Of a DNA stretch of 64,000 nucleotides, positions 50,902-64,000 are shown one piece after another; position 1 is the first letter of the stretch; the number at the start of each line of letters is the position of its first letter. The DNA comes from Cymodocea nodosa (lineage: Eukaryota > Streptophyta > Magnoliopsida > Alismatales > Cymodoceaceae), in NCBI GenBank assembly GCA_036874045.1, contig JAZBRI010000004.1, positions 5,580,001 through 5,644,000 of the forward strand, read 5' to 3'. The position numbers and the translations under genes are program-made. The notes beneath the pieces were generated by a model. It had not been told where the DNA came from. It ran no database searches and saw only the letters and a program-made list of their open reading frames with translations.

Positions 50902-53900
50902 TTATGCTAATGATGAAGGCTGCTCATATACTTCCGCAATAGCTTTTGCAGTTCCTAGTAAATCTGAATTCATTTCTGAGATAATCGACTCCATGTACTC
51001 TTTGTAGCCAGATACTGCATTGATGATCGTGAATAGCTCTTGAGCACATTTCTGGACATTTTCGTCGGCTTTCCTGACAGCATCCTGTAAACTCTGCTCG
51101 GAGTTCTGCTGGACATACATCAGGCCATTATTCAACCAAATACAAACTTTCGGTCTCGTCTCATGAAATGATACGAGACATGCGGGAATGTGAAACTCTT
51201 CAATCTCAGGACAATAGAATAAAGTACCTTTAGAAACTCTTCAGCCTCCTTTTCCACTATTTCCATTTGCCGAAACTTTTCATTCATCTCTGCAGTCCTC
51301 CTCTTGATATCTAAATCACACTGGGAAACATAGACTTCAACCTCTTTTTGTAAGAGAACTGATCTACTTTCGGCCTACAAAATCAATTATTTACTGTTAT
51401 ATCCAATAGATTAAAAGCACAGTGACCATAAACCTATGGCCATAATGCCATCATAAAGAATTATCGGAAATTTACATGCAAACGTACGGTAGAATATGGT
51501 GAATACAGATGAGATTTATGATACCAAAAATCAAAACCGTTCTATTTAACCATACATACACATATAACATGTGATACGTCCAACAACATCTATTAAAATA
51601 AAAGAATTCATGAATTTTAATAAAAAAATTAGGAAGGCTGTACTTGAAACTTAGAAGCATCGATTGTATTAGCAATAAATTTCCACATGTAACTAAAAAA
51701 TATAATCGCGAAGATCATAAAACCTATCAAATGTAACAAAATCAACGTTTCTCAAGAAAAATCAAATGTAACAGAAGCATGGAAGAAAAGGCCACTTGTA
51801 ACCGTGGGATACAATTTCAGGTAACTTAAGTTAGAAGTAGACATAATATCACATGATATTGCACCGTAAAATCTTAGAGATAATGCAACTTTTTATAATA
51901 ACCATAGAGCAGTGATAGAGGTAAATAATAAGAAATATAATTTGATATAATATAGAAGAAAACCCAGAGACATACCTCTTCAATTTGGCGTTGGATATCT
52001 GCAAGATCTTCCCTTTTCTTGTTTAACATGGTAGCATTCTCCTGCAACTGTTTCTCAACAGCAATCTTCTCTTCCATTTTCCTCAGATAATTCTCCTTTG
52101 TACTTTCAGAAAGAGCATTAAGACCTGGCTTTAACACAGTCTTGTAGTTGGCTCCCAAAAGTTGAGATGGTGATGATGCTTCAGCATCAAGGACATACTG
52201 AAAATCATTACCAAGCTTTAACCTAGTTGATACATAACAGACGAATGTGATGATTAGCTTCGAAAAGGAAGGACATTTTTGTCACTACAGGTTCAGATAC
52301 CAATAATAGAAATCGTTGCATGTATAAAATAGAACACCAAAACGTTGAACAATCTCGAAAGAATCATCTTCACAGTTCCACCCATTACATGCAGGAAATA
52401 CGCAAGTGGTATCAGTTAACATGTACGAACAGAGACACTAGTCAAATCCAAAGGGGGACTTGGGGGATGAAACTTAGTGAATTAAGTCATCCAAAAGAAA
52501 ATAAAGAAGCAAGAAATATGAATGTAACTTAAAAGCTATCTTTGGTTTGCACTTGTAAAATCCAAATAAGTATGAGTTCATGGGAGAATGTTGTTGATTG
52601 TTATGCGCACACATGTTTTTGAGCTCTTAGCTGTAAGAGCAATCAAAATGGATTTCTTGCAGGGTATATCTAAATTATCTTATCCAAAATTATGCAGTTT
52701 TAAATGATTCTATTTGCAGATTTCTTGTTCATTGGGAACCCATAAGAAAATAAACTGGATTTGAAGGCAGACGAGGACTTTTCAATATCTTCTAAATATT
52801 TTGAAATTTTTAGGTTTTGACAGCAGATGAGAATAAGGTCGAAACTTCATTTCTCGTTTATATATTTTGTAATGTAATGGATAAGCACGCTAGAGAGAGA
52901 GAAAACAAACAAAGGAGGATGGAGAATAACATACTTCGACACGGCCTCGTTGCACTGATCGCTCAAATGCACGAGTTCCATGAACTTCCGTCGAATGGAT
53001 GCATCGAGCTCCAATTTCCTTTCCTCGTGGGCATTCCTCCCCATCTCTGCCTCGGTAATATCCCTCTCAACCGCCTGAAGCTCCTTCTGCATTCTCTCCA
53101 CGTCCCACACATTAACAACCTGAGAGTGGATCTTTTCTTGAAGACCCTTGTTCTCCTCACAAATCCTCCGAATTTCCTCCTCTTTCACCTTTAGCTCCTT
53201 CTCCTTTGCCGCCAGATCCTCCTCCATGGAAAGGACCTTTTCCTTGTACAGATTCACCACCGCCTGAAACTTCTCCACATCCCCAAGAAGAACACCCTTT
53301 TCCTTCTCAAGCGCCTCTCTCGGGGTTGGCCCCGACCGCAATGCCTGAAGCCTCAGCTCCAGGTCCACCGCCTCCTTCTCTAACGACTCTATCGAAGATT
53401 TGCTACGGTCCAGGTCACGCTGAGCAACTTCCATTCTTTCCTTATCGAGCGCCTCAACGGCAGAATCATCGCCATTGATAAAAAGACAGTAACTTTGGGT
53501 CGTAAACTGGACGAGATCGTTACCGTCCCCGAACGACCTGGAAGGGTTAGAACTGAGATAATCGCAGTAATACGCAAGCTGAACGAGCCAGTGAAGGGCT
53601 GTGAGGAACAACGGCCATCCGTGGGGCGTTCCAGGGGCCTTGAGAGCGGACTTGTTGAGCTTGACAGGGCAACCTAGTTCCCTAAGAAACGGTACGAACT
53701 CATCCTCTAGCAGCCGATCGGAGGGGCGAGGGACACGGTAGTGTAGCCGGGACATGATGAAGAGGACGGCATCGTTGATTTCTCGGATTGAGGGGTACGG
53801 TGCCTTCAAAGTTGTGCAAGAGTGGGAGGCGAGGTAGGAATTGACGTAGTGTATCATGGTTTTGTTGGATTGCTGTGGGAGGGCAGCGGAGGAGGATGCA

Positions 53901-56604: not shown

Positions 56605-59600
56605 ATGGCAATGGAAAAGAAGGGACCGTTCTCGATTTCGTTCGTCGGGAGGATGTTCAGGATTTTCAAGGGAATGTCGTCGGCATCGCCGTTGTTGACG
56701 CCTCCTCATCATTCTTCGCTTTCGCCGACAGGACGTGATGGGAACCGGAACGACGGGAGCTTGGCGGTTGTGGAGACGGTGGCCGGGAAGGTCGGGAAGA
56801 AGAAGGCCGGGTCGAGGCTCTGGATGAGGTTTGATCGGTCGGGGGAGTCGGAGTTGATTGAATGCGATAAAAGCGCGATTATCAGAAGAGCTGGTATTCC
56901 GGCGAGAGATCTCAGGATTCTTGGCCCGGTTTTCTCGCATTCCTCCAACATCCTCGGTGAGAATCGGAAAGTTTGATTTTTTTGTTTGTTTGTTCGTTGT
57001 TAATAATTATTACATTTTTCAAGACTTCTTGTAGACAGCTCTTAACTGTTTTGGGTGATTTCGAAATATTCAGTGAAAACGTTTAGAGGATCTCTGGTTA
57101 TACACCTGTGTCCTAAATTGGCATTTTCTGGGGTTATATTTCATGACATGGAATTATGAATTCATTTCCTTTGCAGTTGAAAAACTCGTTACTACGTCAC
57201 AATCACGATATGACACTAATGCACAAGAAAAAAAATCCTTTTCAATTTTTCTAGCCTATACCACTGTGAGACTATTCGTGGCAATGCTACTTAGCATTAA
57301 ATTTTGAGATCATGACGTGATAATATGCCATGGTTGTTTAATTATCATTTAACTTGAAAAGGTCAATTAAGTTTAATTTAATTAAATTCATTCATTCATT
57401 CATGCAATTGTCATTGAAGTTTCCTTTAACACTTTCCTAAGAATTTCCATCAGTGCAATTGACTATTTGGTCCATTATCCAACAAGTCCAATAAACAATG
57501 GTAATTTCAATAGCATTGTTCCTTTTATTTTGATTGTAGATTAGAATTGATGGATCAAGATTCAAATGAAAATGAGAAAGCAGTCTGGTGCCAGCCATGT
57601 CTACCTTCGTCATCTACTTTATTCATTCTTAGTAGTTGTGCTGAGAAACAAAAAAAATATGCATATAGTTGAAAGAGGGGGAACTCAAGTTGGGTGGGTG
57701 GTGGAAAAATGGGTCATCATAGCTGCTGTTTATGAATATCCAGTTGAATTTTTTTACGTACCTACTATTTGTGTAAAATTTTGGTCTAGTTTGTTCGACT
57801 AGCTAGTGAACACACAATGTCAAGTTTTAGAGAAAGGAAGCTAAGTATGGAAGATCCATTTCGTTCACTTTGAACTTCCCTTTTTCTCCCCCGAGCCATA
57901 AATAACTGAAGGTAAACACATTGTTGTGTTTTCTGTTCAAACATTTTTATAAGTTAATTCACATTATTTTTTAATGTAATCTTAATTATTAATATGGGTG
58001 CCCAAGGATGCTGCCTAGGCACTTTAATAGCCTTGATCTTAGACATATATACTTTACATGCATCACACATGTTTGATTTACTTGTAATTTGTAGTTCCTG
58101 AGACCTAACATTAATCTAGTAGTCTTGTCACATATGCTTCACTTTTTAATAGTTGATCACGTCATTAACAAAATAGTAGGTCTCCACTGTAATTGTAGGC
58201 TGCACTTCAAGGAAAATATTAAATTCTACATGTATTCTCACACTGATTATATTTTATTGTAGCTAGGGAAAAAGCCGTGGTTGTCAACTTAGAGTTCATC
58301 AAAACAATAATTACTGCACAAGAAGTGCTGCTGCCAGAACCTCTTAGTCATGAAGTGATTCCTTTTATAGATCAACTAAGGCAACAACTTTCTACAAAGA
58401 GCCCAACTCGGACTCATGAACAAGGGTCTGCTGAAAGTGAACAGCCTGAACTTCCATTTGAGTTTCAGGTTCTGGAAATTGCTTTGGATACTGTCTGCAC
58501 TTCTCTGGAATCGAGTGTTTTGGATCTTGAGAGGAATGCATATCCTGTGCTAGATGAACTGGTGGCAAATGTCAGTACAAAGAATCTTGAACGTGTTAGG
58601 AGTCTGAAAAGTAATCTCACTAGATTGCTTGCACGTGTTCAAAAGGTATGTTTTCTGGTCTCCCTATTCAATCAATATAAGTCCCTTGATAAGTTATTCA
58701 TAAATGGAGTGAAAGAGCAGTGGAATACTTGAGATACAAAATTTGGAGCATTTCTTGGCATGGTACATAAAGACATATGTATATATGCTTTCTCTTAGAT
58801 TATATAGTTACAATATGAAATTTAAGTAATTAACAGCTAATAAATCAAAAATTTTATGTATACATTATTCTCGTTCATTATGTTGGATATTTTCTTGTAG
58901 TTTTATGTTTGATAACCTCATTGTGTTTTTTGTTAGTACCTAAGCATGCTCATTTGTTTTTTGAATTGTTAAAAGTTTGTAAATATGAATGACCACATTG
59001 ACTACCAAACAATCATTTCGGAATTGTTGGAATAATATGGTTGTTGATGAGGTGACTAGGTGTCAATGTGCCATAAACGATTTGAGCATCTAGCATCTTA
59101 GAAGATCCATTATTTTAAATGGGAAATTAGAGTTTTACTTCCCCTTCTCCCAGTTCAACCCTTCACCTCCTTGCCTGTCAGTCATCCTTCCTCTTTTGTG
59201 AGTTTCTTCAACAACTTTGGCACCCTTCTTCTGTGACATCAGCACTTTCAATGATCTTCCAATGAATTTTCTGACTTTTCAGAAGCCGATGATGGCTCAC
59301 AATGAGTTTCTTTCTTCCATCATGCCATCTTCTAGCATGCTCCTTTTTTCCATGTGCCTCATTGGCCTCTCCTCTTGTGTGCATCACAAGGTAAAGTATA
59401 TTCATATATGTTATTTATATTTTTTTTGACATTTTCTGTTAGAAAATCTGATTTTCTAGGTATTGCTCTGATAACTTTATTGTTTAAAAAATATTTAAAT
59501 GTATCTTAAATCATGGTAAGGCTTCGGGGGACTTGATCATTTTCCAATCATGGTGTTCAAAAAGGTTAGAACTCATGGATACAATTTCTTTGCTTTCCAT

Positions 59601-62600
59601 AAGGGTAGGGGGATATTAGGGTGACAAACACTGATATCATTTGCTTAATCTCCAAGAAGGCTGATGCTTGTAATATTGAAGACCATAGATTCTTTAACTT
59701 CTTAAGCAATATTTACAAAGATCATTGCATGTGCTTAACAGGGTGACTCAAGCCCCTGATGTCAGTTTTAATTAGAGACTACCAAACTGCCTCTGTAAAA
59801 AGGCAACAAATTTTATAGGATTTCCTGGTGGCATAAGAATCCATTGAGTTGAGGCACTCAGGGGGGGATTTGTGCATTTCTCCCATAGGGGGAAATGAGA
59901 GGAGATGGGGGGAGAAGAAAAGATGGGAAATGTTTTTCCATCATTATAGGTGTTTGTGCAAAGGGGAAATGATTTCTCTCCATTTCCCTTATATAAATAA
60001 CCTGAATTTTTTTTGTCTCCCCCCTTTTACAGTGATCAAAAATCACTCGAAAAAGTTCCTCCCTTGACTCCTAAAACCTTCACATCTGTCTCACAAACCT
60101 CTCCTTGTGTCTGTCTCGCCCATTCATTGTCACTAGGTGCTTGTGTGTGGCTTGGCACCTTCGACACCGTTGAGGAGGTGGCTAAGGCATACAATCGGGC
60201 AATGTATGCCATGCAAGGTCCCAATGCAGTTCTCAATTTCTCCAGGGATGGTGAATGATCCAAATTGTCGAAACCACCGCCCTCCCTATCATCTCTGCTC
60301 CAATCACAAGATGAGGAGAGGTCAAACATGATAATGTTGGAATGCCTCGACAACAAGCTCTTGGACAAGCTCCCCCTTTAACCTACCAATGATACAAAGC
60401 CCAAGAAGCAATGAAGGTCTATGTTGTCTATGGATTTCTCATCCTCCATGATTAAGAAAAGATACTTATTCCTTTTCTTGTTCATATTAGATCAAACATG
60501 ACGGTCTTATTGAGATCAAAATAGGGGAAGGTTGCAGAGAAAGCTTCTGAAAATAGAGCATTCTGTTGAGAACCAAGACCAGGTAGGGAAAATGGCTAGG
60601 TGAGCACATAGCATTCAGTCTAGATGAATGCTTAGTTGGGCAATCATAGTAGTGCTCGATTCCAACATGTCGTCAAGAAAATCACGTGATTCTTGGTCCT
60701 GGAAAGCAATTGAGTGCTCAACCCTAGTCAATTGTTGAGCGATAGCATGGTTGCAGTAGTAGTTGACAGAGCTCTATTGATGCTAAAGAAGATGAACAAG
60801 TAGTGAAAAAATATATATAAAAACAAAAGAATAAAGAATAAAGAGAAAGAAAAGAAAAGAAAAGGGGAGGAAAAATAAATTGTATAGAAAATATAAATAT
60901 CTCAAAATTAAATTATTTAATAATTTTTAATATATATTATATTAATTAATTAATTGTTAATATATATTTTATTATTTAAAATATTACTTTTCAAGTTGAT
61001 AGTAATATTTGTTAATTTATTATTTTAAAAATTATTAAATAATGCATTTGTTGTCATTTTTTGTAACTGCACAAACACCTCATTTTCCATCATTTTTGAT
61101 GCATGCACAAACAATCTTATATTTTTTGTCATATCCTGTCATTTCCATTTCCCACTATTTCAACTATTTCCTGTTTCATTTTGCAACGAAAAACATGCAC
61201 AAATGGGCCATCAATGTTTTTAGGTTTCATTTAGGTATACATTGGCCTTGTTTGAAGTAGATGATGAGATGCATGAGTATGGTGAGAAATGATAAAATTC
61301 CATTAACTATTGTGTTAGCTTGGCCCACTTCTTTGTTTTAGTCAAAGGGTGCCATAAGGGTTTCTTTGTTTTCTGTAGAGGGGGTAAGATGATCCATTAT
61401 CATCTTCAGTGTTCAATGTTGTGGAAGAGGTTTTTGGCTGAATGTGCAGTGTTGTTATATCTAATGGGAAACTCATTGTTTTTTGCCCTGAGCATGGGAT
61501 GGCCAGCATTTCATGTTTACGGTATGCAAATGATACATTTGTGTTCTCAGATGCCTCAATGGATTAAGTATGGAACTCGATGTGCATGCTGGGATTCTTT
61601 AGAGTTGTAACAGGATTGAGTGTCTATTTTCACAAGTTTACTGTATTTGGAATATGTTGTGATCCCTTATTGGTTGGTTAGGTTATAGAGATTTCTAGAT
61701 GTTGTGCAATTGACCATCCCTTTTAACTTGGGGCTTTGTTTTCATCTTAGAAATCTGAAGTGATCAGATTGGATCTCGATGTTTGACCAGTTTGTAAGGA
61801 CACATTCAGGGTGGGAAGCTTTCTTTTTGTCCTGGGAAGGTAAAGTGATGGTTCTATACAACCTGCCTATTTATCATATCTCAATGTTCATGCTTCCAGT
61901 TGAGCATGCAATAGGATTGATGACATTTTGAGATGGTCCCTGTAGAAATGGCGTAAACATGGTGTTTAGAGGGGCCATGCTGTGGTCTCATGGCACAAGG
62001 TGTAGTGCTTCAGGTTGAATGGTGGTTTGGGCCTTTGGGATCCATGCAACTTCAATATGGTGCTCTTTTGAAAATGGTTATGACTTTTGCTAGGAGGTGA
62101 GGTAGGGAAGGTGCTTTGGTAAAAGCTTGTCTTGGCAAAATGGTATGGAGTTAGGTTACCTTTTGAGAACTTCGTCAAGGTAGAGAAGTTAGTTGCGTGT
62201 GTAGAAGGGGATTTCAGAATCAACTGTGGAAGTGCAAAGTGGTTTGTAGGTACGGATTGAGGATGGAACATGGACAGGTTTTTACAGTTATATTTCCCCA
62301 ACTTGTCTTGAATTGCTTTGGTGCCAAATTGTTTTTTTTTTAAAAGCGTTTTATGAGCCATCTGAAAGGGTTGGCTTGGTGTACTGTTTCTGTAGGGCTG
62401 TATGAATACAAATTTTGGCTTTTTGCCATGGTAGAAGAGGTTGTCAATGGATGATTTGTAGAGGAAGATAGGTATTTTGTTGGAGGGAGAGTAACAGAGA
62501 AGTTGGAAGATTGGGCCTTGGCATTGCCTGACTCAGAAGTCAACATGAGTTGGTGGAGATGGTGAGAGTAGCAGTTGAGCACTTCAGGTTATTGCCTCAT

Positions 62601-63465
62601 ATCGGCCTTTTGGAGGTTGTCAAAGGTCAAACCACACATTTCCTTCCTCTTTTGTGCAAGGATGCAAGTTTAAGCACTACATTGCCCAGCTCAAATGAAG
62701 GATAGGTGATTCTTTTACCTTAAATTTCATGAAATTCAATGCACCTCTGAACAAAATGTACAAAGAGAACAAAAGCAAAAAATCAAGATTGAAGAATATA
62801 AATCCATGAATTCCCCCAACTGAGCTTTGGTAGTTGATACTTGAATCCATGATGGATGAAGCTCTCCTAGTGTCAGTGACAATTCAAAACTTTTCCCAAA
62901 CACAATCTCATTCCATTGAGATATAACTCAATCCTTGTCTGTTAAAAATCCTTTGGTTTTTAACTATCGATTCCCACCATCAAATAGCATGAAAAATCAA
63001 TGCCACCAGCCCGGACTATCTTTTCTAGAGGAGTCAACTTTTCACCTGTTTTAGATTGCCTATTACCTTAGTTCTAAAATTGTATCTGGTTTATATTACT
63101 TGAACCTATAATACAATCTGATCTCAATGATCATATATGCGATTTTATCATAATTGAAAATTTTATTTGTTTATTATCAGGTCAGGGATGAAATCGAACA
63201 TCTTTTGGATGACAATGAGGACATGGCACATTTGTATTTGACCAGAAAACAGATTCAAAACCAGCAGTTTGAAGCTTTGATGGCAGATGGGGTTTCCCAT
63301 AACATTACTTCTGTCCAGCCAAATCTTGCAAGAACGAGTTCTCATTCTCACAGGAGTGTAAGCATGACTACCAGTGTCCATTCAGATGACGATGTGGAGG
63401 ATCTAGAAATGTTGCTAGAGGCATATTTCATGCAGCTTGATGGGACCCGAAACAAAATACTGTCG
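56605..63465 (+). CDS. MRS2: MRS2/MGT magnesium transporter, MRS2-4 type (3' end outside window)
   Basis: Exons 56605-56956, 58263-58645 and 63181-63465 join in frame and give the first 340 residues. Conserved blocks: [112 protein letters not shown] and [18 protein letters not shown]. The usual next exon, starting VREYIDDTED and carrying the two membrane helices and the GMN motif, is not in 63466-64000, so the gene runs off the right edge. These proteins form homopentameric Mg2+ channels; MRS2-4 types are in the ER or plasma membrane. The start at 56605 ([10 protein letters not shown]) fits homologues; an in-frame ATG at 56380 would add 75 low-complexity residues. Intron 2 is 4.5 kb. Confidence 0.94.
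56957..58262 (+). other. MRS2 intron 1, 1.3 kb
   Basis: No exon or element clearly seen, except GCCTAGGC-type repeat sequence near 58000-58045. The open frame at 57566-57802 has no recognisable domain. Confidence 0.6.
59868..61204 (+). mobile_element. Non-autonomous element with terminal inverted repeats carrying an ERF gene fragment
   Basis: The ends are ATTTGTGCAT (59868-59877) and its complement ATGCACAAAT (61195-61204). A second, internal pair is AGGTGTTTGTGCA (59948-59960) and its complement (61068-61080). Between the pairs the arms are partly alignable (GGGAAATG, GGAAA). A GGG flanks both ends and could be a 3-bp target duplication, but it is not conclusive. The interior holds the ERF fragment and a purine-rich then AT-rich block (60790-61050). 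The terminal motif GTGTTTGTGCA resembles that of the fold-back element at 1469-2650. Confidence 0.5.
60145..60381 (+). pseudogene. AP2/ERF transcription factor fragment, 5' half missing
   Basis: The plus frame reads [20 protein letters not shown] then [20 protein letters not shown], the C-terminal half of an AP2/ERF DNA-binding domain. The canonical form is [21 protein letters not shown]...GAKAVLNFP. A TGA follows at 60256-60258. The same frame then continues to [19 protein letters not shown], which resembles the C-terminal LEYLDD-type motif of ERF group VIII/IX proteins, and ends with TAA at 60379-60381. The first half of the domain (YRGVRRRPWG...) is absent. Hence a truncated pseudogene, probably moved as a gene fragment. 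It lies in MRS2 intron 2, in sense orientation, between inverted repeats. Confidence 0.75.
61300..62640 (+). mobile_element. Decayed L1-type LINE reverse transcriptase remnant
   Basis: Read across plus frames with several stops and shifts, the stretch near 61790-61990 gives [20 protein letters not shown] followed by LPVEHA. This matches the plant L1 motif SKGGRLTLIKSVLSNLPIYYLSLF..P. Upstream text near 61380-61560 resembles the RT palm region, and the downstream part resembles the zinc-knuckle/RNase region. It is many-fold disrupted and 5'-truncated. No poly-A tail or target duplication was found. Confidence 0.5.
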
Positions 63466-64000
63466 GTTAGTAATTAGTTCTTACTTGCTTTGCCTTATTA
63501 AGAAAGGAACTTGGCATTCATATAGCTGGCAAATCCTAGTGCAACTAAGGGTGGGGGGCACTTTCTAACTGGCAAATAATCCACTAGTGCAACTAAGGGT
63601 GGGTTCTTCCCTTTCCCACCAAGGACAAACAACCATTTAATGAAACAGCAAAAAGCCATTCTAAAACAGGGGGAAAAGAAAGGATCTATATATCAATATG
63701 ATAGGCTCACAAGAAATACATAGAAACCGAGTTCTCTGAAAGGAACCAAAGCAAAGTAAAAGCCATCAAAACACTAAAAGACTAAAAAAGAGAATCTAAT
63801 GGTGTACATTATTAGATGGATTGTATGTAGTCTTACCTTTTAAGACAATAATTACTCAATGAATAATGGACGTGAAAACGTTTCTTTGATAATGTTAATT
63901 TTTGCATTCACCAGGATTCAAACTTGGTAGATGTGTGGAACCATGAGTATCGTTGCTTCTGTCCAATTGAGCTAGTATAGTTGATTGTAGATGTGAAAAT
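63466..64000 (+). other. MRS2 intron 3 (partial) with a reverse SINE copy
   Basis: Intronic after the donor TCG|GTTAG at 63466. A tRNA-derived SINE lies on the minus strand at about 63880-63992: TAGCTCAATTGG (A box) and AAGTTTGAATCC (B box). A short duplication is at 63526-63605 (GCAACTAAGGGTGGG occurs twice). Confidence 0.5.

Follow-up and report, generated by a model that had tools for sequence, protein, structure and literature searches.

Pack-PIF elements are known from maize and rice. Most of them are flanked by TTA/TAA duplications; they carry gene fragments and occur as insertions in genes (Gisby and Catoni 2022, PMC8903248). The same study gives a model based on the fusion of neighbouring elements (PMC8903248), and a 2026 review describes uptake through aberrant excision of adjacent elements (PMC13317346). 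Systematic studies before that of the maize and rice elements are reported to have dealt with Pack-MULEs only (PMC8903248), so that fewer Pack-PIF cases are on record.

The element described here lies in an intron of an MRS2-like gene of Cymodocea nodosa, within a window of 64,000 nucleotides (contig JAZBRI010000004.1, positions 5,580,001 to 5,644,000). It is a new example of the already described Pack-PIF kind. As in the maize and rice elements, it has PIF-type tips, a 3-bp target-site duplication (TSD), pieces of genes, ends shared with copies of different content and a position inside a gene. It differs from them in belonging to another plant, in its tip group (GGGGGGGTTTGTGCAC), in its TSD (TCA) and in that its decay was measured by sequence context. 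The habit of carrying cargo is shared with other non-autonomous elements that hold gene fragments between terminal inverted repeats, but their tips and TSD length differ. Tourist-type MITEs and autonomous PIF/Harbinger elements have G-rich tips and a TWA duplication, and the autonomous members encode Myb-like and DDE proteins. In the MRS2-intron element, host cargo stands where these two genes would be, and the element exceeds the usual length of MITEs.

The first-pass annotation had proposed gene-fragment capture by a non-autonomous DNA transposon of Pack type, and the comparison with the rest of the genome agrees with it. Since its ends are shared by copies with other cargo, a TSD is present, relatives code for transposase and a donor-like gene exists, the MRS2-intron element is read as a non-autonomous PIF/Harbinger element of Pack type, with a probability of about 0.92. 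The observations behind this reading are the tips, the arms, the duplication, the transposase domains of relatives, the donor-like gene, the cargo shared with other loci and the bias of the decay. The locus offers a worked case of the uptake and mixing of host gene pieces by Harbinger-type elements, in which donor-like genes, siblings and what is probably a relic of CG/CHG methylation can be seen; alone, it leaves knowledge of MRS2 or ERF genes unchanged.

Host intron and structure of the element

The host is an MRS2-like magnesium-transporter gene on the plus strand. The exon 5' of the insertion (58265-58645, start approximate) matches Pfam PF22099 (E 8.6e-11), and its end was read at the splice site CAAAAG|GTATG. 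The intron (58646-63180, 4,535 bp, phase 0) has GT-AG borders read in the sequence, and the next coding stretch (63181-63477) runs to the first in-frame stop, not to a mapped exon end. The protein reads through the junction unbroken, from ..LLARVQK at 58645 onwards from 63181, and Pfam finds MRS2-like matches in both exons, the second under its cut-off (E 3.1e-4, 20.5 of 27 bits). A search of the PDB with the MRS2 region returned nothing at 0.001. The splice sites and the plus-strand exons bear out the earlier placement of the fragment within an MRS2 intron, in sense orientation. When the upstream exon and the left part of the intron were searched against the genome as DNA, only repeat-like matches were obtained, with no paralogous intron or empty site among them. 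A kinetochore-type neighbour gene with a match to the HEC/Ndc80 family (Pfam E 1.3e-15) lies at 53564-53875 on the minus strand.

The genome searched comprises 374.6 Mb in 28 contigs (labelled C1, C2, etc.), with the MRS2-intron element on C4. Comparison with other copies delimits the element to 59861-61210 (1,350 bp), flanked on both sides by the 3-bp TSD TCA (59858-59860 and 61211-61213). The element initially placed at 59868-61204 is real, and its ends shift outward by a few bases. Its left tip reads TCA|GGGGGGGATTTGTGCAT and its right tip ATGCACAAATGGGCCA|TCA. The left terminal inverted repeat, GGGGGGGATTTGTGCA (59861-59876, plus strand), was defined from other copies and from the tip pattern of the family; the right one (61195-61210, minus strand) was defined from other copies and reads TGGCCCATTTGTGCAT inward. 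The two form short terminal inverted repeats, GGGGGGGATTTGTGCA / TGGCCCATTTGTGCA.

Two nested pairs of inverted repeats had been noticed before, and both are present: the outer pair ATTTGTGCAT / ATGCACAAAT and an exact inner pair of 13 nt, AGGTGTTTGTGCA at 59948-59960 (plus strand) and TGCACAAACACCT at 61068-61080 (minus strand). A partial second right repeat, TGCACAAACA, was read at 61104-61113 on the minus strand. In the related loci L060 and L062 (the latter 1 kb), the left tip is accompanied by one GGTGTTTGTGCA-type repeat and the right tip by two. The layout in the MRS2-intron element, one repeat on the left and one plus a partial one on the right, is like theirs, with the left repeat at a comparable place, and the nesting is therefore a feature of one element type, the inner pair being its subterminal repeats. 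A second, nested transposon was considered and ruled out, given the comparable subterminal position of AGGTGTTTGTGCA-type repeats in those two loci.

The left arm (59861-60101, plus strand) is common to other copies by genome comparison, up to 60101 in L034 and up to 60082 in L035. It contains a TATA-box-like motif, TTATATAAATA (59989-59999, plus strand), also found in L035, which may have served as part of a promoter. The right arm (60749-61210, plus strand) is common to other copies wholly or in part. Between the two arms, only short inverted repeats were found.

Copies with the same arms

Searching the genome with the element sequence gave at least 57 matches, with 40 of 860 candidates scored, and the left arm gave 19. 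A search for copies with and without the ERF part had been suggested, and both sorts exist. In L030 the ERF cargo is flanked by arm matches left and right, and the left tip is absent. L035 has both arms of the MRS2-intron type around a wholly different cargo, and L042, of about 285 bp, has both ends and no cargo; the ends are thus shared by other copies, the absence of which had been named as evidence against capture. In L031 a tip-like motif stands near the left end only, without an arm match, and L040 has two left-end candidates. Pfam scans of L035, L044 and L048 returned no family.

Five two-ended copies carry arms of this type (the MRS2-intron element, L035, L042, L050 and L055). A clean 3-bp TSD is seen in two, TCA in the MRS2-intron element and TAA in L055; that of L050 is off by one base, and the flanks of L035 and L042 do not match. 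At the right ends, the triplet 7 nt past TGCACAAA is TNA in 8/16 cases (the MRS2-intron element and 15 loci), the highest count of all 16 offsets tried, the next best being 4. This count uses 16 of 20 ends: L006 was left out because it coincides with L047, and L030, L040 and L038 were left out because their matches end before the tip is reached. TNA also stands immediately 5' of the purine run in 7/11 left ends, and three of the four misses belong to a tandem array in L044. The left tip of the MRS2-intron element is one base longer than in most copies. The array itself (L044, 3570-3830) is small and built of transposon ends: three left-arm tips stand in tandem, separated by a AACTTCTCACCTGCATC unit.

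Membership in the PIF/Harbinger superfamily

The tip pattern of the family, TNAGGGGNGGTTTGTGCAC, was searched with one mismatch allowed and the middle base of the first triplet left free. It gave 639 hits in the genome (328 forward, 311 reverse), while the same pattern written backward gave 0 in the same search. Among 100 matches listed, all start with TAA or TTA. Counted by eye, they include 25 facing pairs no more than about 10 kb apart, and 24 of these have concordant TTA/TAA, the exception being a pair of 10 kb. The TCA of the MRS2-intron element is a variant of this triplet. Two pairs, L060 and L061 (4.2 and 4.9 kb), each contain Myb_DNA-bind_3 and DDE_Tnp_4 on one strand (Pfam). Such duplications, together with these domains in relatives by tip, indicate a PIF/Harbinger make-up. 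L060 and L061 have tips and subterminal repeats in common with the MRS2-intron element, but not arm sequence, and on sequence comparison its arms form a sister group to these two.

Arms drawn from another superfamily (hAT, Mutator or CACTA) would be the least credible alternative. G-rich tips are not diagnostic by themselves and the element's own TSD is TCA, but such an origin would have to account for TTA/TAA in 24 of the 25 listed pairs and for DDE_Tnp_4 and Myb_DNA-bind_3 in two elements with the same tips.

Transposase remains also accompany arms of the MRS2-intron type, on which the PIF/Harbinger assignment can further draw. In L049, L053 and L056, a DDE domain precedes the right-arm match by 315, 310 and 291 nt, respectively, and shares its strand, and in L043 a left arm, a Myb domain and a DDE domain follow each other on one strand. 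The domains in these four loci are decayed or partial. Twelve of the 15 other loci with a right arm of this type reaching its tip have no DDE domain so placed; in L008 one lies on the opposite strand. DDE matches also occur in 2/20 ERF-centred loci (L011, weakly, and L018), so there is some background, and support comes from the like strand and spacing and not from presence alone. L037, where transposase domains stand by a left arm of this type in the other sense, was left out of the support.

Pfam on six frames found no transposase in the MRS2-intron element, and tblastn with pieces of L060 gave no match to 59861-61210. The enzyme that moved the element would have been a Harbinger transposase. 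The genome's load of such transposase sequences is very large, with 2554 first-look DDE_Tnp_4 candidates. Of the 150 that were scored, many have in common a frame of 257 aa that contains one TAG and one TAA, as if a single family had been amplified. L049 and L063 (C7:22062200-22066300) contain two decayed copies of Harbinger transposase in series, in the same orientation.

Origin and combinations of the cargo

The captured ERF fragment (60136-60575, plus strand) begins midway through the AP2 domain, covers the C-terminus and reaches into the 3' flank. By itself it gives only a weak AP2 match (positions 31-53 of 54, E 0.011), and no Pfam match at 0.001. Its identity comes from a locus on C21 (856968-857379), where an intact ERF of 140 aa with a clear AP2 domain (E 1.5e-16) shows 70% protein identity and 77% DNA identity over 441 columns. 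This confirms the earlier description of the fragment as holding the C-terminal half of an AP2 domain, and it answers the search for a parent ERF with the closest gene found, which is donor-like. The reading frame of the fragment (60145-60378) contains one TGA (60256-60258), seen by translation and alignment, and is followed by a TAA (60379-60381) aligned to CAA in the C21 gene.

Pieces overlapping this cargo occur in L030 (C2) and L031 (C1). Over the 125 columns common to all four sequences, identity is 87-90% among the three captured copies and 78-81% between them and the C21 gene, from which the three differ at 15 common derived sites. A 28-bp insertion is whole in the MRS2-intron element and in L031, and 17 of its bases are present in L030. 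The common derived sites and the insertion point to one uptake, or one lost donor, for the three copies.

It is accordingly very improbable that the fragment is a plain ERF pseudogene, or an independent insertion, that chanced to sit between two solitary transposon ends. Its decay and incompleteness, the frequent occurrence of arms on their own and the unclean TSD of some copies are what might be expected in that case. The same derived ERF sites, however, recur at two other loci, one of which (L030) is flanked by left and right arm matches; TCA is found at both tips of the MRS2-intron element; and L035 repeats the layout with other cargo.

Ahead of the ERF piece, both L030 and L031 carry part of a DUF6817 gene that is located on C16 and unlinked to the ERF gene. 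The position of the joint agrees between the two loci to about a dozen bases, and in L031 it has a short CAAG match between the ERF and DUF6817 donors. The only Pfam match in L030 is a weak one to DUF6817 (E 0.053), accounted for by the C16 gene. The cargo of L035 has no ERF match and combines a longer piece of the C16 gene (85%) with a sequence related to C6 (76%), whose donor locus (L058) has no Pfam family.

The second internal segment of the MRS2-intron element (60590-60748, no strand assigned) has a relative found only at C19:10440287-10440626 (L032). Its reverse strand contains a short open stretch, which an open stretch of L032 matches in one frame, so that the segment may be of coding origin. 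Three reverse frames of L032 4101-4800 gave no Pfam match. The reverse strand of the element also shows a weak match to DUF3671 (E 0.042), which is under the cut-off of that family and was taken as chance.

Unlinked gene pieces in varied combinations between related arms are read as an exchange of cargo among sibling elements, although their order of events is conjectural. A family element would have captured, between its arms, the 3' half of an ERF gene; the source would be the C21 gene itself or a close relative since lost. Elements with ERF cargo would then have been copied and rearranged, the ERF piece being joined in one of them to a piece of the DUF6817 gene, and a Harbinger transposase would have inserted one copy into the MRS2 intron, duplicating TCA. 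A wider proposal, tentative and rather doubtful, is that one Harbinger lineage acts as a cargo shuffler, recombining ERF (C21), DUF6817 (C16) and C6 pieces behind a TATA-bearing arm while CG/CHG methylation by the host erodes them; the MRS2-intron element would be one product, lying in sense.

Decay of the captured DNA

Between the C21 gene and the ERF cargo there are 77 differences, 61 of which are C-to-T or G-to-A from gene to element, a direction that presumes that the C21 gene has kept the ancestral state. By context, these changes affect 26/64 CG, 21/48 CHG and 14/125 CHH sites, that is, 47/112 for CG and CHG together against 14/125 for CHH (odds ratio 5.7, p 4.6e-8). Changes at A/T sites amount to 9/175. 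The same bias is found in the L035 cargo, both in the DUF6817 piece (38/100 CG+CHG vs 7/171 CHH, odds ratio 14.4, p 8.6e-13) and in the C6 piece (16/45 vs 11/112, p 2.5e-4). The excess is weak in L030 (13/50 vs 12/105, p 0.021) and not significant in L031 (14/36 vs 15/68, p 0.057).

As a control, seven ERF paralogues, hand-picked among the 17 ERF loci L012-L028, were compared over a stretch of 114 bp. Pooled, with counts that are not independent, they have 30/250 CG+CHG against 12/213 CHH changes (odds ratio 2.3, p 0.012); for L017 taken singly, p is 0.048. The control is therefore not clean, and coding sequence alone shows a mild CG+CHG excess. The paralogues are far more diverged, with 118/272 A/T sites changed, and are not biased towards C-to-T.

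Silenced transposons are methylated at CG and CHG. The simplest reading of the decay suggests that the captured DNA was long methylated at these sites. In the MRS2 intron the element was most likely methylated and decayed as a passive passenger, and its present state would be a silent one.

Possible function in the intron

The first-pass annotation had raised the possibilities of exonisation and of small RNAs directed against the parent ERF. A functional role in place, with the ERF piece spliced into MRS2 messages or giving rise to siRNA that silences the C21 gene, appears improbable. A Pack-PIF-derived exon is reported in maize (PMC8903248), and the sense orientation within the intron would suit such a role, as would the TATA-like motif of the left arm. 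Against splicing of the ERF piece into a message stand the two stops in its frame, TGA and then TAA; an exon read in that frame would stop at the TGA after no more than 38 codons, and the proposal lacks support at the sequence level. For silencing, 87/420 of the 21-mers of the ERF cargo are within two mismatches of the C21 locus, 42 having one mismatch and 44 having two. Only 1/420 is exact, however, and the inverted repeats between the arms are short; a decay consisting mostly of C-to-T and G-to-A changes also speaks against a functional element. The sole exact 21-mer is located in the 3' flank.
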